Shown piece after piece: positions 17,683-34,700 of a DNA stretch of 64,000 bases. The DNA lies in the NCBI GenBank assembly GCA_024222455.1, contig JAAEPD010000147.1:1-64000 (forward strand), in the 5' to 3' direction. The position numbers and the translations under genes were made by a program. Origin of the DNA: Aureispira sp. Its GTDB lineage: Bacteria > Bacteroidota > Bacteroidia > Chitinophagales > Saprospiraceae. The notes beneath the pieces were generated by a model that did not search any database, was not told where the DNA came from, and was given only the letters and a program-made list of their open reading frames with translations. Numbering within the stretch: the first letter of the stretch is position 1; every line of letters begins with the position of its first letter.

Positions 17683-17707
17683 AAAGCGAAGCGATACTAA
17701 CTACTAT
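17683..17707. repeat. Dispersed intergenic repeat, copy 1
   Basis: AGCGAAGCGATACTAACTAC abuts and overlaps the stop codon of the minus-strand TPR gene. Nearly the same sequence (GCGAAGCGTACTAACTACT) occurs at 22124-22142, again just beside a minus-strand stop codon. Confidence 0.6.
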
Positions 17708-18321
17708 TTAATCAAATCCAAACCCTCCTTAGCAGACTTATCATCAGGCGAATACAAAAGTACCTTATTGAACAAAGCCTTAGCCTTAGCCGAATCGCCC
17801 AAGAAATACTTAGTCCACCCTAACATTAGCAAACTATCATAGTCAAAAGGATAGAGATTAAGCACCTTTTCGAAGTATTTAGCAGCTGACTTATAGTCTT
17901 TTTTACCATAATTCATTAAGCCCACCCTATAGTTCACTACAGTGTTATTAGGGTCTATCGCCAAAATATCTTTGTACTGATTACCAACCTTATCCCAACT
18001 TCCCAAAGCTGCTGCAGGGTACACAAACCCCAATTTAGGCTCTATCGCCATTGGATACATTTCTATACATTTTTGGTAGTAAGTGGTTGACTCAGAGAAT
18101 CGTCCTGCCATATAGTGCAACCAGCCTAAACGTAAGTTTAACTCATAAGATTTTTCATCATACACTCCTTTTAGTGTTTTGATTGCATCAGAGTACTTCC
18201 CCTCCTTTTCCTGTGCATAACTCTGCTTAAAAGCATTCATTGTGGCAGCGCTTTGCGCCTGCATCTGTGGCAATCCGATCAACATGACCATCAGCACCAT
18301 TATTACTTGTAATCCCTTCAT
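17704..18321 (-). CDS. Periplasmic TPR protein, last gene of the PqqD/ATP-grasp operon
   Basis: A signal peptide (MKGLQVIMVLMVMLIGLPQMQAQ) is followed by four to five TPR units (YSDAIKTLKGVYDEKSYELN, FSESTTYYQKCIEMYPMAIE, YKSAAKYFEKVLNLYPFDYD, SAKAKALFNKVLLYSPDDKS). It is only two bases downstream of the barrel gene 18324-19622, so the two are almost certainly translated from one message. A periplasmic scaffold helping the outer-membrane partner, whose own N-terminus is also TPR-like, is a reasonable inference. Confidence 0.8.
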   Translation of the reverse strand: MKGLQVIMVLMVMLIGLPQMQAQSAATMNAFKQSYAQEKEGKYSDAIKTLKGVYDEKSYELNLRLGWLHYMAGRFSESTTYYQKCIEMYPMAIEPKLGFVYPAAALGSWDKVGNQYKDILAIDPNNTVVNYRVGLMNYGKKDYKSAAKYFEKVLNLYPFDYDSLLMLGWTKYFLGDSAKAKALFNKVLLYSPDDKSAKEGLDLIK

Positions 18322-18323
18322 AG

Positions 18324-19622
18324 TTATAATCTAAATTTTAGTCCTGTAAAGACATTATGATAATAAAAATCAAAATTCTGTTCTTGTTTATAATCCAAAG
18401 AATAGCCTAAATTCCATGATATTTTTGGTGTAATGTAATATTCTGCTTTGGCACCAACTTGCCAATTGGTAGGACTAATAGAATTGTTGAATATAGCTCC
18501 ATCATAACGCACAAAATCGGTAACAGGTGCTTGAAAAAAGCTGAGTGACATCCCAAACTTATCAGTCAACTGTCCATGCAAAGAGGCACCCCAAATTGGT
18601 TTTAAACTGCCATCATTATTCATATGTATTGCAAATGAACCACCCAAAGTCAATCGATTGTTCCAAACAGGCAATCGATAAGATGCATCTAATCCAAACT
18701 GCCATTTATCAGTAACAGAGTTATTCTCAAAAGTAGTATCTTTCACCAACATAGGAGGGTTAGGCGGAATACCTTGTGTAATTTTAACCTGTGTTGAACT
18801 CTGCCCAGACAAGGACATATAAGCCCCATAAGGTTTGACCATAACCCTCCCAAAAGTCTTTTGAACGCCCAAATATAAGAGTAAACTATTTTCTTTTGTA
18901 GTATTTGTAATATCAGTAGGTCCATCAACTCTAAGTATCTTATTAGTATAACCTCCATTCAAATGTATATAATGCAATGCTGGTATGATCTGCCAACCTT
19001 TGCCCAACAAGACATTCCCTTTTAGGTAATAATCATATTGATTGTATTTCACACCCAAATAGTTTTGAGACAAGAAGCTAAAATTATGATACAGCTTCAA
19101 GAAGCTACCAAAACGATGCCCCATACCTATACTCACAACTCCCATATGTCCTATAGAATCAGGCTGCGAACTAAACCGACCACCAGCATCAAAAGTTATA
19201 TAATCTAACCAACGATTCTTTTGAGCCCCCCATTTCTTTCGAGTACTATCAGGGTAAGCCTTTGCAAAGCGCAGAGCCTCTCCTTCTTTATCAGCAAACA
19301 ACTGACTGTAATACAAATATTCGGGTGCATATGGATCCGCATTATTAAACTCCAAAGTCTTTTTGAAGTGTTTGGTACTTTGCCAATAATTATTGCGAGA
19401 ATATTGAGCTACTCCCATTCGGTAACGCAATCCATAATAATCAATCTCTTGTTTTAATGCACTATCTCCCAACGACATGAGGGTTTTCCACTGCCCTTTA
19501 TAGAAGTAAGATAAGGTCCGTTGCTCCACCTCAGGATAGCTCAACTCTTCCTGTGCAAATATACCTTGCCCTAAGCCAGCTATGCAGCATAGCAGCAAGA
19601 ATAACCTTTGTATATTGTTCAT
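18324..19622 (-). CDS. Outer-membrane protein: N-terminal TPR plus beta-barrel, YaiO-like
   Basis: A signal peptide (…GLGQGIFAQ) leads into a TPR-like region (residues about 25-130: YFYKGQWKTLMSLGDSALKQ, RNNYWQSTKHFKKTLEFNN). From about residue 150 the pattern is beta-barrel: RWLDYITFDAGGRFSSQPDS, GHMGVVSIGMGHRFGSFLKL, ending FTGLKFRL. The architecture and barrel start resemble YaiO-family outer-membrane proteins. It sits 72 bases after the urea-transporter/M23 gene and two bases before the TPR gene. Within the operon it is the likely outer-membrane component. The cargo or ligand is unknown. Confidence 0.7.
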   Translation of the reverse strand: MNNIQRLFLLLCCIAGLGQGIFAQEELSYPEVEQRTLSYFYKGQWKTLMSLGDSALKQEIDYYGLRYRMGVAQYSRNNYWQSTKHFKKTLEFNNADPYAPEYLYYSQLFADKEGEALRFAKAYPDSTRKKWGAQKNRWLDYITFDAGGRFSSQPDSIGHMGVVSIGMGHRFGSFLKLYHNFSFLSQNYLGVKYNQYDYYLKGNVLLGKGWQIIPALHYIHLNGGYTNKILRVDGPTDITNTTKENSLLLYLGVQKTFGRVMVKPYGAYMSLSGQSSTQVKITQGIPPNPPMLVKDTTFENNSVTDKWQFGLDASYRLPVWNNRLTLGGSFAIHMNNDGSLKPIWGASLHGQLTDKFGMSLSFFQAPVTDFVRYDGAIFNNSISPTNWQVGAKAEYYITPKISWNLGYSLDYKQEQNFDFYYHNVFTGLKFRL

Positions 19623-19694
19623 TTGGAAATTTTATATAATGATAAGATTCCTTTTCTTCCTTTTTTCCCTTCCCGTAAAGTCTCCTCCTTGCTT

Positions 19695-21914
19695 CTAAAC
19701 AACCTCCAATACTTCCTCAAAACTAGTCACTAATTGTCGAGCTACGATTGTCTTATTTTTAAGCTTTATTCTAAATACATCTATCTGATTTTCACGCAGC
19801 TCTAAATCAAAAGTCAATCGATCTTGCAAACGCCCAAAACTCTTCTTATCTAGGTGTGTTTCTAGTATAATTTCTTTAGGTCGCATACTGTTGTCAATAT
19901 GCTTATAATTAAGTTGATAAGCCAACTCTCTGTAGATCATAAATGGTGCAATAAAATCTTGTAGGTATCTTCCTATTCCGCTATCCGCTAGTTGTAAAGG
20001 CACCTTATCTTGAATATCAATCTGTTTGTAATAACCCAACAAGACCTTGTACGTTGCTAAATAGAAGTAGTACAATAGTGAGTTTCGATCCCCCTCAAAA
20101 GTTGTAAAATAATGCAAAGTTCCATCATTTACATAGTAAGCATAAGAACCCGTTTTTCGGCAATACAAGTAGGGTTGATTCAAGCCATTTGTATGTACTT
20201 CCCATTCTACCAACTCTCTCTGTCCATCCTCTTCCACTTCAAAAGTTAAACTCTGTCCAGGTATAAATTTGAACGCTTCTCGCATCAAACCAGTTGTTTT
20301 TATACCAAAGATCGTTTCACCCTCTTTAGGATATTCAAATGTTTTGAACTCATAACCACCTTTATCATCCTTTAGCATATAATAAGCCAATGGATATTTC
20401 ATCGTTTTGGAGCCTACATAAGGATTAGCCTGTACTTGGAAGTGTATATGTGGTTCTGGCGAACGCCCAGAATTACCCAAATAAGCAACCACTTTTCCTT
20501 TCTGAACATAATCTCCAACAGCTACCTTAAACGAACCAGCTTTGAGGTGACTAATCTTGGTATATAGATGTTCTGTATGTTTGATTACAATAGAGTTACC
20601 CCAGTTATTTTGAATATCTACATCACCAATTGCATTATCAGGCACATCATCCACTATAGCAACTACATAGCCCGAAGCTGGAGCCGACACTGGCAATCCA
20701 TAACAGTAAAAATGCTCAACTAATGCACCTCCATCTCTATAGGTTTTGTCTTGATCATCTGTTATCACAAAATCCCATGCAGCATTCCAATCACCTTTGT
20801 GAGTATGCTTACCTTCATGCCCTTGCGAAACAGTCCATTCTCCAAAAAATGGCAAGCCTATTTGATAATAAGTTGTATTCGAAAAACGCTTAATATAGTT
20901 ATCATAAGCATATAAATTCTTTTCGGGAGAATATTGTTGTTTAGTTACTTTCAAGAATTTATGCTGTGTACTGAAATTCATTACATAAATAACCATAATG
21001 ACTATAATAGCAAAAGGCAAAGACAATACAGGCAACTGATAAGGCATAAAAATAGCACTAAACGCTGCAATCAACATAGCTATAACAGGAGTTAGTATAA
21101 CCAGTAAACTATAGGTTTTCCATGTTGGAATAAAGAAGAATCCACCAATAGCCATTGCTGACAAAATAAAGTTGAACCCAATATAACTATAGTAGAGTTG
21201 CGTCATATCTGCACCCACAAAATAGTAGAATAAATAACCTGTAATATAACCCACTAAAGACAGTGAAAATGCAATACGAGAACTAATCAAAATCCCTACA
21301 GCAATCAACATTCCAGTCACTATATTTCCATGAAATAGGATAGCTGCTAAAGAATTAAAGTATGCATCTAAAATCAAGGGCAGTTCTATACTATGTATAT
21401 ACTCGTAGAGATTGACCAAAGTCATTCCGCCAAAACGATACAAATCATTCATAGCATAGATAGAACTAACATCTAGAGCCAAAGCATCGTATTGCCGAAC
21501 TGCTAACATGATAATCCAATAAGCCAATAAAAACGGTAAACTCAGGAACGGCACGCCCAACTGAGACAGATAGCCTAGCAAGGCCACAGACAGGAACAGC
21601 GTCAGCAAGCAGGCCGAGAAAAACACCAGCACAAACTGACCATTCACCTCAAAAGCCAATGCTAATCCCATAGCGACCAATAAGCTGTTGAGTCCATACA
21701 AACCTTCTCGAATCGTATGTTTATCAAAGCCTAGCCAATCTGCCAATAAATTAGTAGTCAGAGCAGCAGCCAAGCCCCACAGTCCAAGATCCCAATTGAC
21801 AAAGGAAGCCAAGATCACCAACACTGCCAACCATCTATTCTTAGAAAAGAAGATCTGAGCATAGCTATGCAGAACACTGTCTGTATAAAACCCTATATGT
21901 TGTTTAATATTCAC
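19695..21914 (-). CDS. Urea transporter fused to an M23 (LytM) peptidase domain
   Basis: Residues about 25-320 form ten or so membrane segments with the internal pseudo-repeat of UT/Yut urea transporters ('GLYGLNSLLVAMGLAL' and 'HGNIVTGMLIAVGILI' occupy equivalent positions). Residues about 350-520 are an LytM/M23 metallopeptidase domain: His in 'HTHKGDW', Asp in 'AAWDFVI', the 'VSAPASGYVVAI' strand, 'NSIVIKHTEHLYTKISHL' and the closing 'SPEPHIHFQV' HxH motif. Residues 560-739 are an unassigned beta-rich then helical tail. The metal ligands appear present, so activity is plausible. It lies between the decarboxylase gene and the barrel gene in the operon. The domain order is seen; urea as substrate is family knowledge only. 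Confidence 0.85.
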   Translation of the reverse strand: MNIKQHIGFYTDSVLHSYAQIFFSKNRWLAVLVILASFVNWDLGLWGLAAALTTNLLADWLGFDKHTIREGLYGLNSLLVAMGLALAFEVNGQFVLVFFSACLLTLFLSVALLGYLSQLGVPFLSLPFLLAYWIIMLAVRQYDALALDVSSIYAMNDLYRFGGMTLVNLYEYIHSIELPLILDAYFNSLAAILFHGNIVTGMLIAVGILISSRIAFSLSLVGYITGYLFYYFVGADMTQLYYSYIGFNFILSAMAIGGFFFIPTWKTYSLLVILTPVIAMLIAAFSAIFMPYQLPVLSLPFAIIVIMVIYVMNFSTQHKFLKVTKQQYSPEKNLYAYDNYIKRFSNTTYYQIGLPFFGEWTVSQGHEGKHTHKGDWNAAWDFVITDDQDKTYRDGGALVEHFYCYGLPVSAPASGYVVAIVDDVPDNAIGDVDIQNNWGNSIVIKHTEHLYTKISHLKAGSFKVAVGDYVQKGKVVAYLGNSGRSPEPHIHFQVQANPYVGSKTMKYPLAYYMLKDDKGGYEFKTFEYPKEGETIFGIKTTGLMREAFKFIPGQSLTFEVEEDGQRELVEWEVHTNGLNQPYLYCRKTGSYAYYVNDGTLHYFTTFEGDRNSLLYYFYLATYKVLLGYYKQIDIQDKVPLQLADSGIGRYLQDFIAPFMIYRELAYQLNYKHIDNSMRPKEIILETHLDKKSFGRLQDRLTFDLELRENQIDVFRIKLKNKTIVARQLVTSFEEVLEVV

Positions 21915-21978
21915 CTGCTCTATATTTTAAATACTGCTTAATAGATGATTAGAATTTAGTTCACTCCGTTCATGAGAT

Positions 21979-22143
21979 CGCTTCGCTAAGTTAGACTATG
22001 ATAAGACTATAAAATTATTTTAGCCTCTCAACTATTTCTAAGCACTAAACTAAGAACAAAAAAACTATAAACAAAAAAACATCTAAATACTACTAGACAT
22101 AGTCTAACTACTAACTACTAAACGCGAAGCGTACTAACTACTT
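21979..22143. repeat. Long imperfect dyad with dispersed repeat copy 2
   Basis: CGCTTCGC (21979-21986) and GTTAGACTATG (21990-22000) recur inverted as CATAGTCTAAC (22098-22108) and GCGAAGCG (22124-22131). The right arm holds TACTAACTACT as in copy 1. The 231-base spacer between the decarboxylase and transporter-peptidase genes has no coding character. Confidence 0.6.
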
Positions 22144-22145
22144 CC

Positions 22146-23504
22146 TTACAGTTCAAAAGATTTCAAATGCTCAGGCACACGCTCCAAATGCATCATATAA
22201 TCCAAATCTTCGCTATCACGCACCAAATGCACCTTACTATCCAAATCCACCATTACTATACGAGGACGAAGCGCAATAAACTGCATCCACTGTGTCATAT
22301 TGTAAGCCCCTACTCTATGCACCACTACTTGATCACCTTTATTCAAAGGAGGCAATTTTACATTTTCACGAATCACGTCAATATTCATACACAAAGGACC
22401 ATACAGTACTGCATCTTCTGCATATTGACTACACTCTTGAGCTGGAGAAATAGTATGTTCATACCAAAAAGAGGTAAACATCAGATTGACACCAAAATCT
22501 AAGATTGTAGCTCTACGACCATCAGACAATCGCTTATTTGCCAATACAGACCCTAACAAGTATCCAGCATCATCTACCATTGCTCGACCTGTTTCCAAAA
22601 TCAACAAAGGCAACTCATCTGGTTCAAAACCAGCATTCAACAAAGCTGTACTAATATGCTCTGCATAGTCTGCAAAAGTGGGTGCTACATCTGAGCCACT
22701 TAGGTAAGCCCCTTTCAGAGTATTTTTAGAAGCAAAACCACCACCTAGATCTAAATAGTGGATACTATGCCCAAATTTCTTTTTGATATTCAGTGCCAAA
22801 TCTGCCATCTTACTAGCAGCCACACCATAAGCCTGAGCAGCCAACATATAAGTCCCAATATGACAATGTAAACCAATCAAATCTAGCTTTTTGCTGTGCA
22901 TAATCTTATTGATTGCATCCCAAGCCTGTCCATTTTCATAGTTGAACCCAAAACGATCCCACATTGGCTGTATACCAGTATCCATATTGATACGAATAGC
23001 TACTCTAGGACGTTTATCCATTTCATCGCTCAACTCAATTAAGCTGTACAACTCATCCAAATGGTCGATATGAATAGGTGAACCATTCGCTATAGCAACT
23101 CTATGATCATCTGTTGTTTTATCTGGGCCATTAAAAATGATCTTATCTCCAGGAACTCCATTGCGCAATGCTTTTTCGTACTCAAAGCGAGAAACGACCT
23201 CCCCCCAAGATCCTTCTTGATGAAAAACATTACAAACTGCATTCATATAATTGGTCTTATACGACCATGCAAACTGCACATTTGGGTATCGAGTACTAAA
23301 AGCAGATTTAGCTTTTCGGTAAGTATCTCTCAATGTCTTTTCAGAGATGACAAATAATGGTGAGCCATGTTCTGCTATCAAATCCTTAACGGCTACGCCG
23401 TCTATATGTGTATGTGGAATAAATCCTTGTTGTGCTCCAAATTTATTGGTAACGCCTGTGTTTAATGCCTTTATCACTGGACGCTCATATCTTAGCTTAG
23501 TCAT
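22146..23504 (-). CDS. PLP-dependent decarboxylase of the LysA/alanine-racemase-fold family
   Basis: A 452-residue fold-type III PLP enzyme. Visible features: the PLP lysine Lys83 in 'WSYKTNYMN', 'GLHCHIGTYM', 'LDLGGGFASKN', 'ILETGRAMVDDAGYLLG' (E-x-GR phosphate-binding region, with Thr instead of the usual Pro), and 'YGPLCMNIDVI' containing the active-site Cys of the GPxC motif. Family members decarboxylate diaminopimelate, lysine/ornithine, arginine, carboxyspermidine or carrier-bound glutamate (BtrK). The altered EPGR and CxSxD motifs and the context (ATP-grasp plus PqqD-like, no lysine genes) argue against a housekeeping LysA. Substrate unknown. Confidence 0.8.
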   Translation of the reverse strand: MTKLRYERPVIKALNTGVTNKFGAQQGFIPHTHIDGVAVKDLIAEHGSPLFVISEKTLRDTYRKAKSAFSTRYPNVQFAWSYKTNYMNAVCNVFHQEGSWGEVVSRFEYEKALRNGVPGDKIIFNGPDKTTDDHRVAIANGSPIHIDHLDELYSLIELSDEMDKRPRVAIRINMDTGIQPMWDRFGFNYENGQAWDAINKIMHSKKLDLIGLHCHIGTYMLAAQAYGVAASKMADLALNIKKKFGHSIHYLDLGGGFASKNTLKGAYLSGSDVAPTFADYAEHISTALLNAGFEPDELPLLILETGRAMVDDAGYLLGSVLANKRLSDGRRATILDFGVNLMFTSFWYEHTISPAQECSQYAEDAVLYGPLCMNIDVIRENVKLPPLNKGDQVVVHRVGAYNMTQWMQFIALRPRIVMVDLDSKVHLVRDSEDLDYMMHLERVPEHLKSFEL

Positions 23505-23529
23505 ATCTTTTTGTTTTTAAACAATTAAA

Positions 23530-23593
23530 AATGTAGAATTAAGAATGAAAAATTATTGTTCTCCCCTTTGTTCCTAATTCTTAATTTTACATT
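23530..23593. repeat. Inverted repeat in the decarboxylase/ATP-grasp spacer
   Basis: AATGTAGAATTAAGAAT (23530-23546) and ATTCTTAATTTTACATT (23577-23593) pair over 17 positions with one G-T. It may attenuate transcription between the two operon genes or be a small mobile repeat. Confidence 0.55.
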
Positions 23594-23609
23594 CTAAATT
23601 TTTAATTTC

Positions 23610-24659
23610 CTAAAGCTCTCCTGTCACTGCAATCTGCTGAAAATCCTTCAAGTCGCAAATCATATCGTAGGAATATCGGATAAACATCTTCCCCACATCA
23701 TAATCCTCAAAAGGATCAACTTTCTCGCCCATTGCCATCCGCACCAACGCTTCAGGGTGATTCTGTCCACAACCTACAGCTAAGTACACCCAAGCAGGAA
23801 ATCTAGGATTTATCTCAATCAAGTAAGGGTCACCTGTACTATCTTCTTTGATCAACTCCAACTCTAGTCCACCGCCCCAATTGGTGCTTTCTACCAAGTG
23901 TCGAGCCATTTCTACAAGCGATTCATCTGCCAAAGAAATACCTGCCCAACCTTTTCCCGTATCGGTTATATAAGTCTTGCGCATTGGCACAGCACCAATC
24001 AATTTGCCCTTACCATCGCCAATAGCGGTTACATTCAACTCTTGGCCTTGCACAAACTGTTGTAAGACAATGGGAGTCCCCCATTTAGCACTAATCTTAT
24101 GGAAATAAGCCTGCGCTTGTTCATAAGAAAAAGCCTTGTATGCTTCATAAAACTTCCCTTTTACCATTACAGGATAATCGAAAGTTTTGAGTGTCTGTGC
24201 TAGCTCTTCTATATTAAAAACGACAGCACTTCTAGGTACTAAGATATTGTGTTTATCACCATACTCATTCAGTTTGCCTTTGAGACGAGCATCAAACTGC
24301 TCCATGGTAGGCAAAAGGCTGTGGATACCCATACTTTCAAGCTTAGGTGCTAGTTTGATAAAACTAAACAGCTCTGCATCAAAATTGGGGATAATAACAT
24401 CTATTTTTTCCTTACGGTGAATGTATTCCAAACGACTAAGCAGTGTTTCGTGTCCAACTGAGGGATAAGGAATTTGGTAAACTTTATCTACCAAATCTCG
24501 CATATAAATCCCTGGTTCTAGGTTTTCGTAAGACAAGCCAATGATTCTTGCCTCAAAATGCTTACTCTCCTTCAATCCTCTGATCACTGCTATCCCTGGA
24601 CCAGGACTATCAACCGCATTCAGCCCTGTAACAGCTATATTTATTTGTTGCTTTTTCAT
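23610..24659 (-). CDS. ATP-grasp ligase (carboxylate-amine ligase type)
   Basis: 349 residues with an N-terminal Rossmann-like preATP-grasp part ('INIAVTGLNAVDSPGPGIAV', 'IDVIIPNFDAELFSF'), the nucleotide-binding lysines in 'YPVMVKGKFYEAYKAF', 'PIVLQQFVQGQELNVTAIGD', and the Mg-binding 'GGLELELIKE…PYLIEINPRFPAW' motif. It resembles the CarB/PylC-type group that joins a carboxylate to an amine through an acyl phosphate. It lies between the PqqD-like and decarboxylase genes on one strand. By analogy with BtrJ/BtrK of butirosin synthesis, it could load an amino acid that the decarboxylase then processes; that is inference. Confidence 0.85.
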   Translation of the reverse strand: MKKQQINIAVTGLNAVDSPGPGIAVIRGLKESKHFEARIIGLSYENLEPGIYMRDLVDKVYQIPYPSVGHETLLSRLEYIHRKEKIDVIIPNFDAELFSFIKLAPKLESMGIHSLLPTMEQFDARLKGKLNEYGDKHNILVPRSAVVFNIEELAQTLKTFDYPVMVKGKFYEAYKAFSYEQAQAYFHKISAKWGTPIVLQQFVQGQELNVTAIGDGKGKLIGAVPMRKTYITDTGKGWAGISLADESLVEMARHLVESTNWGGGLELELIKEDSTGDPYLIEINPRFPAWVYLAVGCGQNHPEALVRMAMGEKVDPFEDYDVGKMFIRYSYDMICDLKDFQQIAVTGEL

Positions 24660-24721
24660 AATATTTTTCCATTTAATAGCCCATGCATTCTTAACTTTAT
24701 CAAGCTAAAAATAACAGTCCC

Positions 24722-24741
24722 TTTTCTAATGAATTAGAAAA
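24722..24741. repeat. Hairpin between the PqqD-like and ATP-grasp genes
   Basis: TTTTCTAA (24722-24729), loop TGAA, TTAGAAAA (24734-24741). The neighbouring 24760-24815 is a degenerate TCAATTAT/TCAACTAT repeat. No short peptide gene was found in 24660-24819. Confidence 0.5.
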
Positions 24742-24819
24742 ACTTCATCGACTAATTGTCAATTATGAATGAGCCAATAACTAATTATCAACTATCCATT
24801 ATCAACTGTCAATTATAAA

Positions 24820-25059
24820 CTAATCCAACAGATCATACTGCTTCAACATTTTCACAAAATCATGTATATCTCGTTCTGCAGTGCTATCATCTATAGCATA
24901 TTTGTTGGTTACTTCTTGCTGAACAACTTTAGTATCTTTTCCGGCTTTGATCATCTCTAAAATAAACAATCCAATAGGATTAGTAGAAAAGGAATCTCCT
25001 CTTGCTGCATTAAATACAAAACCATTTTCGCTGATGGCTATACTCTTTTTCAATCTCAT
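24820..25059 (-). CDS. PqqD-like small protein (RiPP-recognition-element fold)
   Basis: 79 residues matching the PqqD pattern: a strand 'GFVFNAARGDSFSTNPIG', the helix 'LFILEMIKAGKDTKVVQQ', then a winged helix 'YAIDDSTAERDIHDFVKMLKQYDLLD'. PqqD proteins bind a peptide substrate and present it to a modifying enzyme; stand-alone versions also occur in non-RiPP operons. It is the first gene of the minus-strand operon, just downstream of the promoter at 25137-25168. There is no radical-SAM gene nearby, which is unusual. It could be a peptide chaperone, or could itself be the carrier modified by the ATP-grasp enzyme. Confidence 0.8.
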   Translation of the reverse strand: MRLKKSIAISENGFVFNAARGDSFSTNPIGLFILEMIKAGKDTKVVQQEVTNKYAIDDSTAERDIHDFVKMLKQYDLLD

Positions 25060-25136
25060 AATGCTTATTTTTTATAATAGAACGATTCAGTTAGTAATTG
25101 AGCTCTTTATGTTTGTGTGACACAGTTAACATACTG

Positions 25137-25168
25137 CTAAGATAAGGCCAGAATCGGCATTCTACAAA
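25137..25168 (-). promoter_or_regulatory. Bacteroidota-type promoter of the pqqD-like operon
   Basis: On the minus strand TTTG (25168-25165) is followed after 20 bases by TATCTTAG (25144-25137), close to the TTTG-N19-TAnnTTTG consensus. The start codon is about 80 bases downstream. Confidence 0.55.
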
Positions 25169-25194
25169 CCCTCTTCAACCAATAGCAGGTTTAA

Positions 25195-25256
25195 ATCAGT
25201 AAATGGCCTATATTTATCAATAAAGTGTTATTTTTATCACTAAATGGTCATTTTGA
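25195..25256. promoter_or_regulatory. Three phased direct repeats, candidate LytTR operators
   Basis: Units begin at 25195, 25216 and 25236: ATCAGTAAATGGCCTATATT, ATCAATAAAGTGTTATTTTT, ATCACTAAATGGTCATTTTG. Spacing is 21 and 20 bases, i.e. two helical turns, the arrangement used by LytTR-domain regulators. They lie directly upstream of the operon promoter and 80 bases from the LytTR gene. Confidence 0.55.
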
Positions 25257-25337
25257 CTCTGTGAATAGACTAAAAAACTCTATTTTAGGTTATTCTATTT
25301 ATAATTACCCTATCCAAAAACATAAGAATAGTAGAAA

Positions 25338-26045
25338 ATGGCAATCAATTGTATCATACTAGAAGATAGTCCACACAACAGTCAGTTGTTGGAAAGTCAT
25401 ATATACAAGCTACCTTCCCTAAATATGGTGCAGGTATGCCAAGATTTTGATAGCCTAGAAACAGCCTTAACTACAATTGAGGATATTGAGATTTTATTTT
25501 TGGTGGTAGAAGAATTAGATGCTACACACTATGTCTTTTTGGATAAGTTGCCACAACGCCCTTTTATTATAGTACATAGTGGTAAGGAACAGTTGGCTAT
25601 AGAAGCTTTTAAACTACAGGTTGTAGATTTCTTGCCTAAGCCCCTAAATTTTGAAGCACTCTCTACTGCTGTCAAAAAGGTGCTTGACCTAACAGTTGAC
25701 CCAAGTCTACTGGATGGATGGGCTCGCAAAAAATACTTCTTTGTTAAGTCTGATTACAAAATTGTTAAGATAGATTTTGATGAGATACTCTACATAGAAG
25801 GCATGGGCGAGTATGTGCGTATCTATGCCACCAACCAAAAAGTGATTACACTCCTATCGCTAGCCAAACTAGCCAAGATATTACCTCCTAGCTTTATTCG
25901 TACACACCGTTCTTATATTATTAATCTAGATCGAGTCGATTTCATACAGACCAACTCTGTAATGATTGGCGACAATGAATTACCTATAAGTAAGAGCCAG
26001 AAAAAGCCTTTTTTGAAGCATATTAATGAGAATGGGTTGTTGTAA
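25338..26045 (+). CDS. LytTR response regulator with a degenerate receiver
   Basis: Residues 1-115 form a CheY-like receiver: acidic pair Glu9/Asp10, Ser in 'IIVHSGKEQ', and Lys in 'FLPKPLN'. The phosphoacceptor position is Val56 ('LFLVVEEL' instead of 'LFLDIQMP'), so ordinary phosphorylation is not possible. Residues about 130-235 are a LytTR DNA-binding domain ('KIVKIDFDEILYIEGMGEYV', 'FIRTHRSYIINLDRVDFIQ'). No histidine kinase is adjacent. It is divergent from the pqqD-like operon with the phased repeats in between, which suggests it controls that operon in a phosphorylation-independent way. Confidence 0.88.
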   Translation: MAINCIILEDSPHNSQLLESHIYKLPSLNMVQVCQDFDSLETALTTIEDIEILFLVVEELDATHYVFLDKLPQRPFIIVHSGKEQLAIEAFKLQVVDFLPKPLNFEALSTAVKKVLDLTVDPSLLDGWARKKYFFVKSDYKIVKIDFDEILYIEGMGEYVRIYATNQKVITLLSLAKLAKILPPSFIRTHRSYIINLDRVDFIQTNSVMIGDNELPISKSQKKPFLKHINENGLL

Positions 26046-26068: not shown

Positions 26069-26587
26069 TTATGGAAACCCTATAGATGAGTTAGTAATAG
26101 CTATTAAGAAAGCAGAAATGAGTATTGCCCACATTATTAATGAAAAAACCCCTAAAATAATTGCTGCAATTGCATAGCCTTTCCCTCCATACTTATCTGG
26201 TTTTTGTATTGTCCTACTTAAAAAAATGCTCCCTAAGACTAAAGCTACTAATGCTAATACAGGAAAGATTAAACCAATCAGACTCAAAACAAAAATTGTC
26301 CTATTAGGACTCTCATTGGATTCTGTTTTTGTCTTCTGCTTAACCTTTTTCAGACGTTTATTCAGACGTTTTTCTTGTTTAACTTTAGTTGCTCTATCCA
26401 ACTTGCTAGATAAGCGGTTCAAACGTTTATTCAGCTTGGCTTGACGCTTCTCTTGTTGGGTGGTTACCTTTGGGGCTTTTCCCTCATCTCTTGAAGATTC
26501 TAGAGTGGGTGCATAGCTTGCTGATGATAGAAGCATAGCCAATATCAATAAACCAATAGATAAAATACTCTGTTGATATTTATACAT
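26069..26587 (-). CDS. DUF4190-like membrane protein, paralogue 1
   Basis: The start is the ATG ending at 26587 (MYKYQQSILSIG…), which matches the other paralogues; the longer frame to 26653 runs into the remnant of a fifth copy. Layout: signal/anchor segment ending SSASYAP, a highly basic helix with two 'RLNKRL'-type turns (KLNKRLNRLSSKLDRATK), then two or three hydrophobic segments with 'YGGKGYAIAAIILGVFSL', the Gly/Ala-rich pattern of DUF4190. 24 bases from the convergent LytTR gene's stop. Probably an envelope membrane protein; role unknown. Confidence 0.7.
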   Translation of the reverse strand: MYKYQQSILSIGLLILAMLLSSASYAPTLESSRDEGKAPKVTTQQEKRQAKLNKRLNRLSSKLDRATKVKQEKRLNKRLKKVKQKTKTESNESPNRTIFVLSLIGLIFPVLALVALVLGSIFLSRTIQKPDKYGGKGYAIAAIILGVFSLIMWAILISAFLIAITNSSIGFP

Positions 26588-26618
26588 AGACATAGGTTTT
26601 ATTAAAAACATATACAAA

Positions 26619-26748
26619 CTACCACCAATTAGCTGCAATAAGAGATGGCACAAAGATTACAGCAAATAAGAAAGCAAGTCCTCCCAAAACAATAACGGCA
26701 ATAACAAAACCTACTCCTCCATTTTTAGAGTTTTTCCATATTTGTCAT
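26619..26748 (-). pseudogene. Remnant C-terminus of a fifth DUF4190-like paralogue
   Basis: The minus strand reads GGVGFVIAVIVLGGLAFLFA VIFVPSLIAANWW then stop at 26619-26621, closely matching the C-terminus of paralogue 3 (AIAAIVLGGLAFLFAVIFVP). The part before it (MTNMEK…) matches paralogue 2 but is in another frame, and nothing further upstream remains before the stop of paralogue 2. It is therefore a truncated, frameshifted copy. Confidence 0.75.
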
Positions 26749-26749
26749 C

Positions 26750-27295
26750 CTAATATCCCAACCCAGCAAAAAGAGCACTTACTACTAAAAGGGAAACAGC
26801 TAATAAAAAAGCTGTTGCGCCCAAAACTATAGCAGCAATTGCAAAACCTTTTGCTCCAGATTTAAAGTGTTCCCTATTTGTCATCTTAAAAAAAATAAGC
26901 CCTAATACAAATGAAACTATCGAAAATACAATAGCTCCAATGCCAATAAAAGGATTAAACATAGTCAAAACAGCAAGCACCAATGCAATTATACCCAGAA
27001 TAAAGGCTATTATACTTCCTGTCTTACTTTTCTTATACTGCTGTTGCTTAACCTTTTTTATCCGTTTATTCAGACGCTTCTCTTGCTTATCCTTAGTTGC
27101 CTTATCCAACTTACTAGACAAACGATTCAAGCGCTTATTCAGCTTAACTTGTCGCTTCTCTTGTTGGGTGGTTACCTTTGGGTCTTTACCCTCATCTCTT
27201 GAACTTTCTAGATTCGGTGCATAGCTTGCTGACGATAGGAGTATAGCCAATATCAATAAACCAATAGATAAAATACTTTGTTGATATTTATACAT
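26750..27295 (-). CDS. DUF4190-like membrane protein, paralogue 2
   Basis: 181 residues from ATG 27295 with the shared N-terminus MYKYQQSILSIGLLILAILL, the 'APNLESSRDEGKDPKV' stretch, the basic helix (KLNKRLNRLSSKLDKATK) and two hydrophobic blocks: 'IIAFILGIIALVLAVLTM' and 'GFAIAAIVLGATAFLLAV'. A third hydrophobic stretch lies between. The N-terminal 80 residues are nearly identical to paralogue 1, the membrane part less so, suggesting recent duplication or gene conversion of the 5' half. 33 bases downstream of paralogue 3. Confidence 0.7.
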   Translation of the reverse strand: MYKYQQSILSIGLLILAILLSSASYAPNLESSRDEGKDPKVTTQQEKRQVKLNKRLNRLSSKLDKATKDKQEKRLNKRIKKVKQQQYKKSKTGSIIAFILGIIALVLAVLTMFNPFIGIGAIVFSIVSFVLGLIFFKMTNREHFKSGAKGFAIAAIVLGATAFLLAVSLLVVSALFAGLGY

Positions 27296-27328
27296 AGAAA
27301 TAGGTTTTATTAAAAATAAAAAAAACTA

Positions 27329-27874
27329 TCACCAATTAATTGCAATAAGAGATGGCACAAAGATTACAGCAAATAAGAAAGCCAATCCCCCTAAAACAAT
27401 AGCAGCAATCGCAATTTTTCTGCCCCCATATTTATTTGAATATTTATTTATTTTAACTAAAAAAATAAGCCCTAATATTAAAGCAATTAACCCAAATGAA
27501 GCTGCACAAAGCCCCATAATAGCGAAAGCAACACCAAATGCAGTAAGAATAGCAAGTACCATTGCAATTAACCCAAAAACAAAACCTACAATAGCTCCTG
27601 TCTTACTTTTCTTATATTGCTGTTGTTTAACCTTTTTTATCCGTTTCCTTAAACGCTCTTTTTGCTGAGTACTAGTTGCTTTATCTACCTTACTAGACAA
27701 ACGATTCAAGCGCTTATTCAGCTTGGCTTCTCGCTTCTCTTGCTGGGTGGTTACCTTTGGGGCTTTACCCTCATCTCTTGAAGATTCTACAGTAGGTGCA
27801 TAGCTTGCTGATGAAAGAAGCATAGTGAGTATCAACAACCCAATAGAAAGAATACGCTGTTGGTACTTTTGCAT
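27329..27874 (-). CDS. DUF4190-like membrane protein, paralogue 3
   Basis: 181 residues starting MQKYQQRILSIG. The same modules: signal segment, 'PTVESSRDEGKAPKV', basic coiled helix (KLNKRLNRLSSKVDKATSTQ), then membrane segments 'AIVGFVFGLIAMVLAILTAF' and 'KIAIAAIVLGGLAFLFAVIF'. Its C-terminus is the closest match to the pseudogene at 26619-26748. Located 44 bases downstream of paralogue 4; the set reads as one leftward transcription unit. Confidence 0.7.
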   Translation of the reverse strand: MQKYQQRILSIGLLILTMLLSSASYAPTVESSRDEGKAPKVTTQQEKREAKLNKRLNRLSSKVDKATSTQQKERLRKRIKKVKQQQYKKSKTGAIVGFVFGLIAMVLAILTAFGVAFAIMGLCAASFGLIALILGLIFLVKINKYSNKYGGRKIAIAAIVLGGLAFLFAVIFVPSLIAINW

Positions 27875-27918
27875 AATATTAAAGTTTAGGTTAAAAAATA
27901 ATAGCCACGTAACGAATA

Positions 27919-28470
27919 CTAAAAACCTCCTATCCCTCCTGAAGCAGTTATAGCTATTAATACATACATAACATATATTAAAAACCCTAGTATTGTCAAA
28001 GCTCCTAATACTATAGCAGCAATTGCTAAACCTTTTCCTCCATAGTCACTAGGATTTCGTTTCGCCAATTTTGTAAAAACAATACCTAAGATTAAAGCTA
28101 CTAATCCAAATATAGGTGATAGTATAATAAACACAGGCGATATAGCGACAAATAGAGCCATTACGATGGCAATTATACCAAAGGCAAGGCCTACAATAGC
28201 TCCTGTCTTATCCTTATACCACTTAACCTTTTTAATTCGTTTGCTTAAACGCTCTTTTTGTTTTGGACTAGTTGCTTTATCCAACTTACTAGATAAGCGA
28301 TTCAAGCGTTTGTTCAGCTTGGCTTGGCGCTTCTCTTCTTGGGTGCTTACCTTTGGGGCTTTACCCTCATCTCTTGAACTTTCTAGATTAGGTGCATAGC
28401 TTGCTGACGATAGAAGTATGGTGAGTAACAATAAACCAATGGATAGAAGGATAGGTTGGTATTTTTGCAT
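27919..28470 (-). CDS. DUF4190-like membrane protein, paralogue 4, first of the array
   Basis: The start is the ATG ending at 28470 (MQKYQPILLSIGLLLL), not the longer frame to 28614, because all copies align from here and a perfect promoter -7 element lies at 28501-28508. 183 residues with the same signal segment, 'APNLESSRDEGKAPKV', basic helix, and hydrophobic blocks including 'GLAIAAIVLGALTILGFLIY'. The basic helix is shorter than in the others (RIKKVKWYKDKTGA). Role unknown; the array invites a dosage or variation explanation. Confidence 0.7.
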   Translation of the reverse strand: MQKYQPILLSIGLLLLTILLSSASYAPNLESSRDEGKAPKVSTQEEKRQAKLNKRLNRLSSKLDKATSPKQKERLSKRIKKVKWYKDKTGAIVGLAFGIIAIVMALFVAISPVFIILSPIFGLVALILGIVFTKLAKRNPSDYGGKGLAIAAIVLGALTILGFLIYVMYVLIAITASGGIGGF

Positions 28471-28500
28471 AAGATTAGATTTTAGGTTAAGAGTATAAGA

Positions 28501-28508
28501 CAAACATA
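28501..28508 (-). promoter_or_regulatory. Promoter -7 element of the paralogue array
   Basis: The minus strand reads TATGTTTG, a perfect TAnnTTTG, about 30 bases before ATG 28470. The best -33 candidate (TTTG, 28538-28535) is 26 bases away, longer than usual. Confidence 0.4.
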
Positions 28509-28655
28509 CCTCATAAACCATATCTATAACATGACAAATATCATAATCAATAGTGATTTTTAGTAAAAAAAGGAGCCATCTGATAAGGCGAACAGTTAGA
28601 TTTTGAACAAACATAAAATATTGCTACTACCATTAAGCTCTCCACCTAAAAAAAG

Positions 28656-28778: not shown

Positions 28779-31700
28779 TTATCTCAACAAGGTTACATCA
28801 CCTTTAAATACCTCTACAGAGCCATCCAAATAGCGAACCTCTATATAATAAACAAATACACCTGTGTTCATTAGTTTACCTTTGAACGTACCATCCCATC
28901 CATGACCTCCTAAGTTAGGTGGAGAATCATTGTGGCTCACTATCAACTCCCCCCAACGATCAAAGATCATGAATTTCTGTACCACATCTACACTAGGCCC
29001 TGCATAAACCATAAAGTGATCATTCACTTTATCACCATTTGGACTAAAGGCACTTGGAATAAACACATCTTCACGCTCGTTCACCTTCACAAAAATATCG
29101 GCATAATTAGGACAACCATTATCTCCTTGTACATTGACTACATAATTGGTCGACTCCCAAGGCTGTGCTTTTACGTGATGACAAGTGTCACAGTCTAACC
29201 AATCGCTTGGAGTCCATGTAATCTTAGGATTATCTGGTGCATTGACTGGCATAAACACATTGAAATCAACGGTTTCACCTCTGAATATCTCCATATCATC
29301 AGGCACCTCCAAAACAATCGAATCAGGTCGAGTAATGGTTGCATACGTTTCATAACCACAATTGTAAGCATCAATTACGCCTACTTGGTATTTGCCAGGA
29401 GATAGATTAGTGAATACAGAATCTGTATTTGGAATACTATCTTTTAGATAATATAAATAAGGAGGTGTACCACCATAAGCTTTTATGGCTATTTGCCCAT
29501 CATCTGAATTAAAGCATTTAGTACGACTTCCTGTAGCTTCTGCAACTAAACCATCAGGTTGTGCAACAGAGGTATCTAAAGTAATAAAACAACCATTATC
29601 ATCTGTCAATGTAACTGTATAATCACCAGCCTTAAGCCCTGCTGCTCTAGAAGAAAGTCCATCACCAAACACAGCACCATTACTCCATGTATATCTAAAT
29701 GGAGGTGTTCCACTACCTTGATATAACATGACTTCTATTTGTCCTTCATCACCACCATTACATTCTATATCGATCACATCTGTAATCTTTGCATTGATTG
29801 GAGAAGGTTGATAAATAAAGACTTCTTGCACAATTTCGCAGCCTTTTGTATCTGTAACAGTACACCAGTATAGTTCAAATGCATTCAAGCCTGTAACAGT
29901 AGTCGTTGTTTCGCCTGTAGACCATTGATAAGTAATTGGGCCACTACCACCAGAAGCTGTTACATTAGCCGTTGCATTAGAATCACCATAACAAGTCACA
30001 TTGGTATGCCATGTGGTGATCTCCATTCCATCAGGGTTGTCTATAAATACAGTTCCAACACCTGTACAACCATTATCATCAGTTACTGTCAAGGTATTAT
30101 TACCATAAGGTAAATAAACTATCACACTATCTATATAACCAGCATCCCAACTAAAGCTATAAGGTCCACCAGTACCACCTGTGACAACAGGCGTAGCTTG
30201 CCCATCATGATCATCCTTACAAGTTACCCCAACCACATCTATAAAGTTAACTATAATCTGATTAGGTTGCCCAACTGTATAGGTCTCAGAGAAGGTACAG
30301 CCGTTGGCATCGGTCACAACTACAGTGTAATTAGCTGCACTTAGATTCCAAATAGTACCTGTTGTTTCTCCATTTGACCATAAGAAGCTATATCCTGGTG
30401 TACCTCCTGTAGGTGTCACATTAATATGCCCATCGCTATCTCCATAACATGCTACATCTTGTATCACATAACGACTAATACTCAGTGGTCCTGGTTCTGT
30501 AATCACTACCAATTCGGATAAAGAACATCCATTAGCATCCGTTACGGTTACATAATGAGTTCCTTGTGTTAGATTATTGGCGATTTGAGTAGATTCTCCA
30601 TTAGACCAATTGTAGGTATAAGGTGTAGCACCTCCGCCCATATTTGCTTGAGCTTGACCATCTGTACCTCCACTACAACTTACATTTTGCAAGTTGGTAG
30701 TGCTTAAACTCAAGGCTGCAGGATCTATTAAGGTAGTACTTGCGGAAATAGTACAACCATTCACATCTGTTATTACTACAGTATATGTTCCTGCTACTAA
30801 GCCTGTTGCTATTGTAGTAGTCTGACCATCTGACCATAAGTAAGTATATGGCCCAGTACCATCACTAGCTGTTGCCGTTGCAGCGCCATCACTTGCTCCT
30901 ACACAACTAATATCAAATCCATTATGATTAGAACTAACATTGGCTGTTGCTTGAACAGTAGTAGGCTCCGATATAGTTATGGTTGTAGTTGTTTCGCAGC
31001 CATGTGCATCTGCTATAGTAGCAGTATATGTACCTGCAACTAAGCCTGTTGCATCTTCTGTATTTTGACCATTTGACCATAAATAAGTATATGGTGCAGT
31101 GCCTCCTGCTCCTAAGGCATTAGCAGTTCCATCATTAGCTCCATTACAACTAATTTGAGCTCCATTATAATCAGAGGTTACAGAAGAACTCGCTGTCAGT
31201 AAAGTTGGTTCTGTAACAGTACTAACTACTAAATCTGTACAACCATTAGCATCTGTTACAATTACGGTATAAGTACCTGCTGTCAATCCTGTAACATTAT
31301 CAACAGTAGCACCTGTTATCCAGTCATAACTATATGGAGCAGTACCTCCTGTAGCTGTTATTGCCACGGCACCATCATTTCCTCCATTACAGTTGACATG
31401 AATAACGGTAGAACTTGCCGCTAAAACAGTTGGCTCTCCTATAGTCACTGTTCCATCTATTGTACAACCATTCGCATCGGTAATAGAAACAGTATGTGTT
31501 CCTTCATCTAAACCTGTAGCTGTTTGAGTCGTTTCGCCATTCGACCAAACAAATTGATAAGGCAAAACTCCATCAGAAGGATTAGCTATAGCTTGTCCAT
31601 CACTACCTCCATTACAATTCACATCTTGTAGGTTAGTTACAACTAATGCTAACGGTTCTGGTTGTGTCAGTGAATCTGTAGTCATTGTCCAACAACTATT

Positions 31701-34700
31701 AATATCTGTAACAGAAACTGCATAAGTCCCAGGATTTAGTCCGGAAACTGTTGTGCTTGTTTGTCCATCAGACCAAACAAAGGTATAAGCTCCTGTCCCC
31801 CCATTGGCAGATACTTGTGCAACACCATCACTACCACCGGCACAACTTATATTATATCCATTATAATTAGATAGAATAGTTGTACTGATTGTCAATACTG
31901 GTGGAGGTGTTATACTCACACTTGCAGTGTCAGTACAACCATTGGCATCGGTAATAGTTACAGGATATAGACTTGCTTGCAAACCAGTAACAGTTTGAGT
32001 TGTTTGTCCATTCACCCAATAATAAGTATAAGGCCCTATACCACCATTGGCATTGGCGACAGCTGTTCCATCATCAGAATCTGCACAACTGAGTTGAGCA
32101 CCATTATAATCGGAAGTAATAGTAGCTGTAGTTATTACTGCACTTGGTTCTGTCACTGTTGTTGTTATAGTCATGGTACAACTATTCGCATCAGTTATGG
32201 TAGCTGTATAAACACCTGCTATCAAGCCCGTAGCAGTTTGCCCAGACTGTGTATTAGACCAACTATAGGTATAACCTGCTGTGCCACCTCCTACTGTTAG
32301 GGCAATACTTCCATCTGCACCTCCATTACAACTTACAGGAGTCATTGCATCTGTTACAGACAGAACAGTTGGCTCTGTCAATGTAGCACTATCTGCAATA
32401 GTACAACCATTGGCATCTGTTACGGTTACAGCATGTGTGCCTACTCCCAAACCTGTTGCTGTTTGGTTGGTTTGTCCATCTGTCCATACAAAAGTATAAT
32501 TGGTGGTACCTCCTATTATATTAGCATTGGCTTCACCATCTGTAAATCCATTACAACTAGGATTTTGAGTATTATCAATAGTTAAGGTCAATGTACTTGG
32601 CTCTGTAACTACTACAGAAGTGATAGTTACACAACTATTGGCATCTGTAACAGTGACATCATATCCTCCTGCTGCCAAACCTGTTGCAGTTTGATCTGTT
32701 TGGCCATCAGACCAAATATAAGTATAGGGTGTTGTTCCTCCTGTAGCTACTACGGTTGCATTTCCATCAGCAGCACCATTACAAAGCGCAGCTATTGAAG
32801 ATATAGTTGTAGTAATTGCATTAGGTTCAGATATAACAACTGTAGTCACAGCAGCACATCCATTATCATCAGAAACAGTAACCGTATGTATACCTGCTGC
32901 TAGGCCTGTAGTTGTTGGTCCAGATTGAGTATTTGACCAATTGTAAGTTAAAGTTCCGGTTCCGCCAGTTCCTCTAGCTATAGAACTTCCATCACTACCT
33001 CCATTACAACTCACATTAATTGCAGTATCAATAGCAGGAACTATAATAGTTGGGTCAATTAAAGTAACTAAAGCTGTATCGGCACAACCATTAGCATCTG
33101 TTACCGTCACTATATAACTGCCTGCACTTAAACCACTAGCAACTTGATTTGTTCCTGTGCTTGACCATGCATAAGTATAATTAGTAGTACCTCCTACAAC
33201 AGTAGCAGTTGCTTGTCCATCACTATCCCCATTACAAGAAACATCTGCGCCATTATAATCTGAACTAACAGCAGCTGTTGCGTTCAAAGAATCTGGTTCT
33301 GTAACCACTACTGCTATAGCCGAAGAACAACTATCTACATCTGACACCGTCACATGATAAGTACCTGCACATAGCCCTGTTGCCATTGCGCTAGTTTGTG
33401 CATTTGGATCATCCCAAATAAAGGTATAAGGTACTGTAGTATTTCCACCAGCGGCAGATACAATAGCAGAACCATTGCAATCTGTGTAACAATCAGGTGT
33501 TGTTATATTAATAATAGAAATGGCTAAAGAACTATTACTTGGTATATTAATATTGTCCGTAGCTGTACAACCATTGGCATCCGTAATGGTAATTGCATTA
33601 AAGTTTGGACACAAGTCAATTGGGGAAGCTGTGGTATTTCCGTTTGACCAAGCATAAGTATATGGTCCTGCTCCTCCCGATACTGAAATAGTAGCTGTAC
33701 CATTACATCCTGTGTTTCCACAATCAGAAGGTGTTGTATTCTGAATAGTTACTGCTAATGCTGTTGGTTCTGTAATTGTTACGTTTGCAACTGTTGAACA
33801 ACTATTGGCATCACTTACTGTTACAAGATGTCCTCCAGCTGTCAAGGCAGAAGCAGTTTGTGTTGTTTCTCCATTATCCCATAAATAACTGTAAGCGGTT
33901 GTTCCACCTGAAGGTGTAGCTGTAGCTTGTCCATCTGACAACCCATTACAACTCACTCCTTGTACTTCTGCTGCTAAAGATTGTAAAACATCAGGTTCCG
34001 TTAGGTTAATTGTTTCGACTACAAAACAACCTGCATTATCACTAACTGTAGCCACATAAGTGTTAGCGCAAAGTCCAGTGAGAGAAGCTGTAGTTTCACC
34101 TGTACTCCAACTGTAGATATATGGTGCTGTACCTCCTAATGGTGTAATATTTATAGCCCCATCACAATCTCCATTACAAGAAATAGCTTGTGTAATGGTA
34201 GAATTTACATTCAAAGCACCTGAATTACCAATATTGATAGTCAAAGTAGCTGTACAAGTATTAGCATCTGTTACGGTTACTATATTATTACCAGAACATA
34301 GTCCAGTTGCATCTTCTGTGGTTTCACCACTAGGCCATTGGTAAGTAAATCCTCCTGCTCCACCACTTGCTGTGATATTAGCAGTTGCATCACAAACCCC
34401 ACAACTCGCTACTGTTTGTGCATCTAAAGCAATATTAATAGCTGCTGGTTCTATAATAGAAACAGGTACTGTAATGGTACACCCATTGGTATCTCGAACA
34501 GTTACGGTATAATTATTTGCTGAAAGGCTACTGAACAGGCCTGTACTGTTAAAGTTAACACCATCTAGGGTGTATTGATAAGGTGCTACGCCTGCTCCAG
34601 CATCTGCTTGTACTGTTATTTCACCATCTGTGCCTCCATTACAACTCACATCTATAGTAGATACTAAAGTGGCTGTAAGCGCTGTAGGTTCTGTAATGGT

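Follow-up and report, generated by a model that had tools for sequence, protein, structure and literature searches.

A conserved operon of Bacteroidota and Ignavibacteria pairing a putative lasso-type RiPP recognition element with an ATP-grasp ligase and a decarboxylase that carries a leader-like motif

A six-gene operon on the minus strand was analysed in a 64,000-nucleotide stretch of DNA from Aureispira sp. (Saprospiraceae), positions 1 to 64,000 of contig JAAEPD010000147.1 (assembly GCA_024222455.1), hereafter called the window. The first gene (24820-25059) encodes a PqqD-like protein of 79 amino acids (Pfam PF05402, 40 bits), which is assigned below to the discrete RiPP recognition elements (RRE; RiPP, ribosomally synthesized and post-translationally modified peptide) of lasso type. 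It is followed by an ATP-grasp ligase of 349 amino acids (23610-24659; Pfam matches of 39 and 29 bits), a pyridoxal phosphate (PLP) decarboxylase of the alanine-racemase fold with a FigC-like pocket (452 amino acids, 22146-23504; Orn_Arg_deC_N 113 bits, C-terminal sheet 46 bits) and a protein of 739 amino acids (19695-21914) in which a urea-transporter (UT) channel (198 bits), an M23 peptidase (Peptidase_M23, 55 bits) and a C-terminal beta domain are fused. The last two genes encode an outer-membrane protein with an N-terminal tetratricopeptide repeat (TPR)-like part followed by a beta-barrel (18324-19622; weak OMP_b-brl and TPR matches) and a periplasmic TPR protein (17704-18321; TPR Pfam matches), the signal peptides of both being assigned by eye. 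An earlier sequence-only reading of the window had placed six minus-strand genes, with gaps of 160, 105, 231, 72 and 2 bases, between 17704 and 25256. All six open reading frames (ORFs) and these gaps were confirmed, and Pfam supported every assignment. The span was correct at 17704, but the first gene begins at 25059 and not at 25256; positions 25060-25337 are the intergenic stretch between the RRE gene and a divergent LytTR gene.

The order RRE, ATP-grasp, decarboxylase, UT-M23 fusion, outer-membrane TPR-barrel and TPR protein recurred in about 130 loci of Bacteroidota and Ignavibacteria, and the gene set is therefore not a chance assembly. Its carriers include many relatives of Bacteroides with a free-living habit. 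Synteny in relatives, which the sequence-only reading had named as a check on its proposal, was thus observed. Identity in relatives with the same gene order was about 60% for the ATP-grasp protein and about 70% for the decarboxylase. The order was kept in nearly all named loci whose contig extends far enough. The class Ignavibacteria contributed 39 loci with this order, at decarboxylase identities down to 46%, and ten further loci with the same order were added. Among 395 genomes sampled evenly across the phylum, the decarboxylase was present in 34 (about 9%), representing 27 of 171 genera. Compared with the relatives, the wide gaps of the window are an exception: the median gaps in 124 loci were -4, 18, 17.5, -13 and 2 bp, the genes usually overlapping, and such compact spacing argues for a single transcript, as far as gene layout can tell. 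The TPR-barrel gene was kept in most Bacteroidota and lost in those Ignavibacteria loci that are most divergent, in which the TPR gene comes directly after the fusion gene. The TPR gene itself was conserved at the operon end across loci. The core of the operon is the RRE, the ATP-grasp ligase, the decarboxylase, the UT-M23 fusion and the TPR protein. That the six genes form one operon unit is considered practically certain.

A few loci depart from this picture. A gene of the IF-2B family (eIF2B/MTNA-like, about 305 amino acids, PF01008) was located between the decarboxylase and UT-M23 genes in four loci (L026, L074, L093 and L103). One genome (G063) carries two operon copies, and in the second of them (L213) about 1 kb separates the decarboxylase and UT-M23 genes. 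The operon was also found in a record titled Bifidobacterium breve (L037, a metagenome-assembled genome; decarboxylase identity 71%), which is probably a misnamed or contaminated bin. An apparent loss of the RRE and ATP-grasp genes in Larkinella was an artefact of ORF picking and was discarded.

The nearest solved chains of the PqqD-like protein were TbiB1 (49 bits), TfuB1 and PbaB1, and its top NCBIfam match was lasso_PqqD_Strm, under the cut-off. Judged by these comparisons the protein is a lasso-type RRE. Its gene is the sole PF05402 gene in the genome of the window. Discrete lasso RREs bind the motif [Y/W]xxPx[L/V/I/F/A] in precursor leaders (PMC13381572). In the complex of LppB with its leader, Asn33 fixes the leader where it kinks at the Pro, and Asp70 forms a bond to the Tyr hydroxyl; the mutation N33A almost abolished leader binding, and D70A weakened it (PMC13381572). 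These residues were mapped via PbaB1 (G42 = N33, Q79 = D70) to N27 (24979-24981) and D64 (24868-24870) of the window's RRE, which are the residues predicted to bind YxxP. N27 was invariant in 116 of 116 loci, and position 64 was Asp in 109 of them and Ser in 6, one sequence being cut off.

No conserved small ORF with a YxxP motif was found near the operon, whole genomes not being scanned for precursors. The gap between the RRE and ATP-grasp genes (median -4 bp) did not exceed 60 bp in 113 of 116 loci and therefore leaves no room there for a precursor. The sequence-only reading had proposed that an amino acid is processed while attached to a small protein or peptide, and this was not borne out, as no conserved carrier or precursor gene was found in or around the operon. 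A leader-like motif within the decarboxylase, missed by that reading, is the likely peptide ligand of the PqqD-like protein.

Alignments of the decarboxylase with FigC and diaminopimelate decarboxylase (DAPDC) begin at its residue 33-34, and the first 30 residues (23415-23504) form an N-terminal extension that precedes the region alignable to LysA and FigC. This extension is conserved across loci and contains, at residues 6-11 (23472-23489), the leader-like motif YERPVI, a match to YxxPx[I/L/V]. Among 123 extensions with [Y/F]xxPx[I/L/V], the Pro was present in all 123, preceded by Tyr in 116 and Phe in 7. In the divergent Ignavibacteria the motif reads YERP, YVRP, YSKP, YIKP or YTKP, so the middle two residues vary and Tyr and Pro are constant. 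Within the first 30 residues, YxxPx[LVIFA] was found in only 10 of the 666 other proteins of these loci. Beyond YxxP, the extension retains a K[F/Y/I/M]G segment, with the K present in 122 of 123.

The residue at the Tyr position of the motif varied together with position 64 of the RRE. In the first 116 loci, the six with Ser64 were exactly the loci in which the decarboxylase has Phe for Tyr. In additional loci, position 64 was Tyr or His alongside Phe in the motif, and in one it was Asn alongside Tyr. Counted over 112 non-redundant rows, the combinations (motif residue/RRE position 64) were Y/D in 99, F/S in 7, F/Y in 4, F/H in 1 and Y/N in 1. This covariation is consistent with a contact between the RRE and the decarboxylase, and it cannot reach significance because it comprises just 2-3 independent changes, which lie in neighbouring clades of a poorly resolved part of the tree. 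The motif, the contact residues and the covariation together strongly suggest that the RRE binds the decarboxylase, and docking of this kind is regarded as likely. An explanation without docking could be that the YxxP of the decarboxylase is coincidental or structural, the RRE acting on a precursor peptide encoded away from the operon. The 10 other proteins with a match, and the restriction of the precursor search to the operon's surroundings, leave some room for it. This is nevertheless thought quite improbable in view of the near-absolute conservation of Tyr and Pro around two variable residues, the covariation with the RRE, and the finding that the RRE always adjoins this ligase and decarboxylase.

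Compared with solved structures, the decarboxylase was nearest to FigC (7kh2, 242 bits), with 181 bits for DAPDC and 116-117 bits for BtrK. Its motifs are altered, as had been read from the sequence before: ETGR was found at 304-307 and C372-M-N-I-D376 further on. The PLP lysine K83 and C372, M373, D376, W347, I375 and Q405 were invariant in 124 decarboxylase sequences. A LysA function was rejected for three reasons. The score on the LysA equivalog was 213 bits (cut-off 297.9), Met was found next to the catalytic Cys in 124 of 124 sequences where DAPDC and ornithine decarboxylase have an acidic residue, and a true LysA is encoded elsewhere in the window's genome. The sequence-only reading had hinged on the decarboxylase not being the only LysA of its genome, and a separate LysA was present in 14 of 16 carriers.

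The equivalents of FigC M355, T327 and Y331, mapped through the FigC alignment, are retained in the decarboxylase. The citrate-binding residues H357, R387 and N389 of FigC correspond to I375 and Q405 (124 of 124 each) and M407 (121 of 124); the roles of the FigC pocket residues, including the citrate contacts, are described in PMC7857480. Identity with the N-citrylornithine decarboxylase FigC/FslC was rejected, since the citrate-binding residues are gone and the FslC score of 213 bits is below the cut-off of 500. The distal ammonium- and carboxylate-binding residues of DAPDC are also changed, the Asp/Glu being M373 and the specificity-helix Arg being absent (roles in PMC7857480). Such a pocket would imply that the substrate presents an amide and a neutral group at the site occupied by an ammonium in LysA.

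In the ATP-grasp protein K127, K167, E207, E268, E282, N284 and R286 were invariant in 46 sequences, and the catalytic residues are intact. Its nearest solved chains were the large subunit of carbamoyl-phosphate synthase and 2pn1, and both NCBIfam and the solved chains identified it as carbamoyl-phosphate-synthase-like and not graspetide-like. The protein ends in ..GE[L/V/I] (window 23610-23640, minus strand) in nearly all Bacteroidota loci, mostly right at the stop. A role of this ..GEL-stop as an acceptor or carrier tail was considered and dropped, since the divergent Ignavibacteria proteins extend a few residues past it.

RREs normally deliver substrates rather than partner enzymes. The decarboxylase could itself be the substrate, its extension being presented by the RRE to the ATP-grasp enzyme for a RiPP-like modification and possibly cut by the M23 domain encoded in the adjoining gene. 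The conserved K of the segment past YxxP would suit such a role, but it is Q in one locus (L171), and no other residue of the extension shows the conservation expected of an obvious acceptor. With the catalytic residues of the decarboxylase fully conserved and a ligase that is carbamoyl-phosphate-synthase-like and not graspetide-like, modification of the extension is considered unlikely.

Both UT and M23 domains were present in 60 of 60 homologues of the fusion protein, and its AlphaFold2 model had a predicted local distance difference test (pLDDT) score of 92.6. Residues 1-342 (20889-21914) form a complete urea-transporter fold when compared with 3k3f (Z 38.1, root-mean-square deviation (rmsd) 2.4, 311 aligned). 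The UT score of 198 bits is well above the Pfam cut-off of 25, and the pore motif LPxLSxPF is kept, the pore Thr being mostly Ser. Residues 346-527 (20334-20879) match the LytM domain of DipM (Z 14.1, rmsd 2.5, 125 aligned), and the zinc-site and catalytic residues H372, D381, H456, H489 and H491 were found in 60 of 60. The C-terminal beta-rich domain (residues about 530-727, 19734-20327) was modelled confidently; it has no Pfam match and was barely covered by the structural comparison. Both termini of UT-B are cytoplasmic. From this homology, and from the positive charge at the fusion's N-terminus and after its last helix, a cytoplasmic location is predicted for the M23 domain, alongside the three enzymes. 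The envelope coupling proposed in the sequence-only reading holds in that envelope genes are attached to the operon, but the predicted location of the M23 domain is not the periplasm.

The complete urea-transporter fold would fit ordinary urea uptake or nitrogen metabolism. A urease alpha gene was missing from 23 of the 28 carrier genomes examined, the other 5 giving only weak matches of 24-31 bits, and the channel is therefore unlikely to feed ureolysis. In the carriers the UT domain was found only as this fusion, plus one free UT, and the UT of the operon is always fused and tied to it in relatives. A role in urea metabolism is thus regarded as extremely improbable. Another reading is envelope metabolism: the decarboxylase would act on a muropeptide or another N-acyl-diaminopimelate, and the M23 domain, which appears active judged by its residues, would hydrolyse peptidoglycan-type bonds. 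The relationship of the decarboxylase to LysA and the TPR and outer-membrane proteins of the operon are in line with this; the replaced distal residues of DAPDC (M373 and the absent specificity-helix Arg) and the predicted cytoplasmic location of the M23 domain speak against it, and we consider it improbable.

The best explanation for the whole is an RRE-docked ligase-decarboxylase operon that makes and moves a small molecule, and it is held with confidence that is evenly divided. The ATP-grasp enzyme would couple a carboxylate with an amino group of a diamino acid, and the FigC-like decarboxylase, judging by its pocket, would then strip the alpha-carboxylate from the resulting N-acyl amino acid. 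By binding the N-terminal YxxP motif of the decarboxylase, in the way that precursor leaders are bound by lasso RREs, the RRE may keep decarboxylase and ligase together for hand-over of the intermediate. The M23 domain, if cytoplasmic as predicted, could trim the product, which would exit via the fused urea-type channel, and the TPR protein and TPR-barrel may handle it in the envelope. Ligation before decarboxylation is put at an even balance, and the direction of export is proposed tentatively. Besides the few independent changes behind the covariation, several points weigh against this explanation. Known urea-type channels pass only very small molecules and are a poor fit for export of an acyl-diamine. 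A cytoplasmic M23 domain would be unusual, and its topology is predicted from homology and charge bias. The structure model of the ATP-grasp protein, made from 4 sequences, is poor (pLDDT 63).

The product within this explanation could be specified as a metal-binding molecule, either a metallophore or a metal-stress metabolite. The relatives FigC, SbnH and AcsE of the decarboxylase work in siderophore pathways (PMC7857480), and some loci have an upstream extracytoplasmic function (ECF) sigma factor and a PF13801 'heavy-metal resistance' sensor. Other regulators are found at most loci, the citrate-binding residues of the decarboxylase are lost, and no TonB-dependent receptor was seen among the conserved neighbours. 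A siderophore pathway of the NRPS-independent siderophore (NIS) type was rejected outright, as the IucA/IucC synthetase was found in 0 of 16 operon-bearing genomes. A metal-binding product is accordingly judged rather unlikely.

In 14 loci, the window among them, the operon has LytTR genes as neighbours; they lie upstream and are divergent in Larkinella, in Flavobacteriaceae and in the window. The gene in the window (25338-26045, plus strand; PF04397, 73 bits) encodes a response regulator and is a candidate regulator of the operon. The pattern C[A/C]nTTTAnTGAT occurs as three near-repeats, about 20 bp apart, in the divergent promoter region at 25190-25248. They are perhaps a LytTR operator; the repeats are not clearly above chance, and no clear counterpart was seen in three relatives. 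An AraC-type regulator is located upstream of the operon in 18 loci (L022:8205-8816 and 17 others). Its N-terminal part of about 100 residues has no Pfam assignment and appears metal-binding (HMA-like) by eye. Near the operon an ECF sigma factor was found in 10 loci and a PF13801/LTXXQ periplasmic protein in 8 loci. The neighbouring regulators suggest envelope or metal sensing that differs between lineages.

Beyond the LytTR gene, four tandem paralogous small membrane proteins of 181-231 amino acids are encoded at 26069-28614 (minus strand). Their N-terminal segment is conserved and the membrane part variable, and one is weakly DUF4190-like. The gene at 28779-40733 (minus strand) encodes a protein of 3984 amino acids, likely a gliding adhesin, which has 22 matches to the SprB repeat and a type IX secretion signal (CHU_C).

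The operon was compared with known systems. Lasso-peptide and LPP biosynthesis (TbiB1, FusB1, LppB) shares with it the RRE family, the Asn and Asp that bind Pro and Tyr, and the YxxPx[I/L/V] motif. Those systems have a precursor peptide, whereas the operon has none and its motif sits on the decarboxylase. The partner enzymes of the operon are also unrelated to the lasso cyclase or B2 protease: neither an Asn-synthetase-like cyclase nor a B2 protease was among the conserved neighbours, which comprised only the operon's own genes and regulators. Rhizoferrin biosynthesis by FigA/FigC (FslA/FslC) shares the closest decarboxylase, with Met by the catalytic Cys and the Thr and Tyr of the specificity helix. 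It uses an NIS synthetase where the operon has an ATP-grasp enzyme in addition to the RRE, UT-M23 and TPR genes, and the operon's decarboxylase differs from FigC in its lost citrate-binding residues. The sequence-only reading had named the BtrJ/BtrK pair of butirosin biosynthesis as the nearest precedent. The pairing of an ATP-grasp ligase with an alanine-racemase-fold decarboxylase is indeed comparable, but the decarboxylase is closer to FigC/FslC than to BtrK, and BtrI/BtrJ/BtrK involves an acyl carrier protein; no such gene was found as a further conserved gene in the operon. Biosynthesis of pyrroloquinoline quinone (PQQ; PqqA/D/E) shares the PqqD-type RRE fold. The RRE of the operon is closer to the lasso type, and neither PqqA nor the radical SAM enzyme PqqE was among the conserved neighbours, in agreement with the earlier view that the pathway is not PQQ-like. 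Graspetide RiPPs likewise have an ATP-grasp ligase in a small operon, but the ligase of the present operon is from another branch and the operon has no precursor peptide. The bacterial urea transporters dvUT and Yut share the complete UT fold and LPxxxxPF pore motifs. They differ from the operon's UT, in which the pore Thr is mostly Ser, M23 and beta domains are fused to the channel, and the carriers are mostly urease-free. A defence function against phages was also rejected, as the six proteins had no PADLOC matches.

Each known kind of system tested fails a defining feature, and all parts of the operon are known folds. No description of the gene combination was found in open-access papers (subscription literature was outside the search), and the view of the sequence-only reading that the operon is undescribed is supported within that scope. 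What would be new is an RRE without any RiPP: a leader fused to an enzyme, and an RRE used as docking module for a ligase-decarboxylase complex, coupled to a UT-M23 fusion and spread across a phylum. Our confidence in this combination as a whole is neither high nor low.

Discrete RREs serve as beacons for finding peptide natural products, whereas the present one seems to bind an enzyme. If this is true, RRE-leader recognition would be a general way to assemble enzymes, and for some orphan RREs the missing leader would lie within an enzyme encoded next to them. A widespread pathway would then become open to test by pull-down and heterologous expression.

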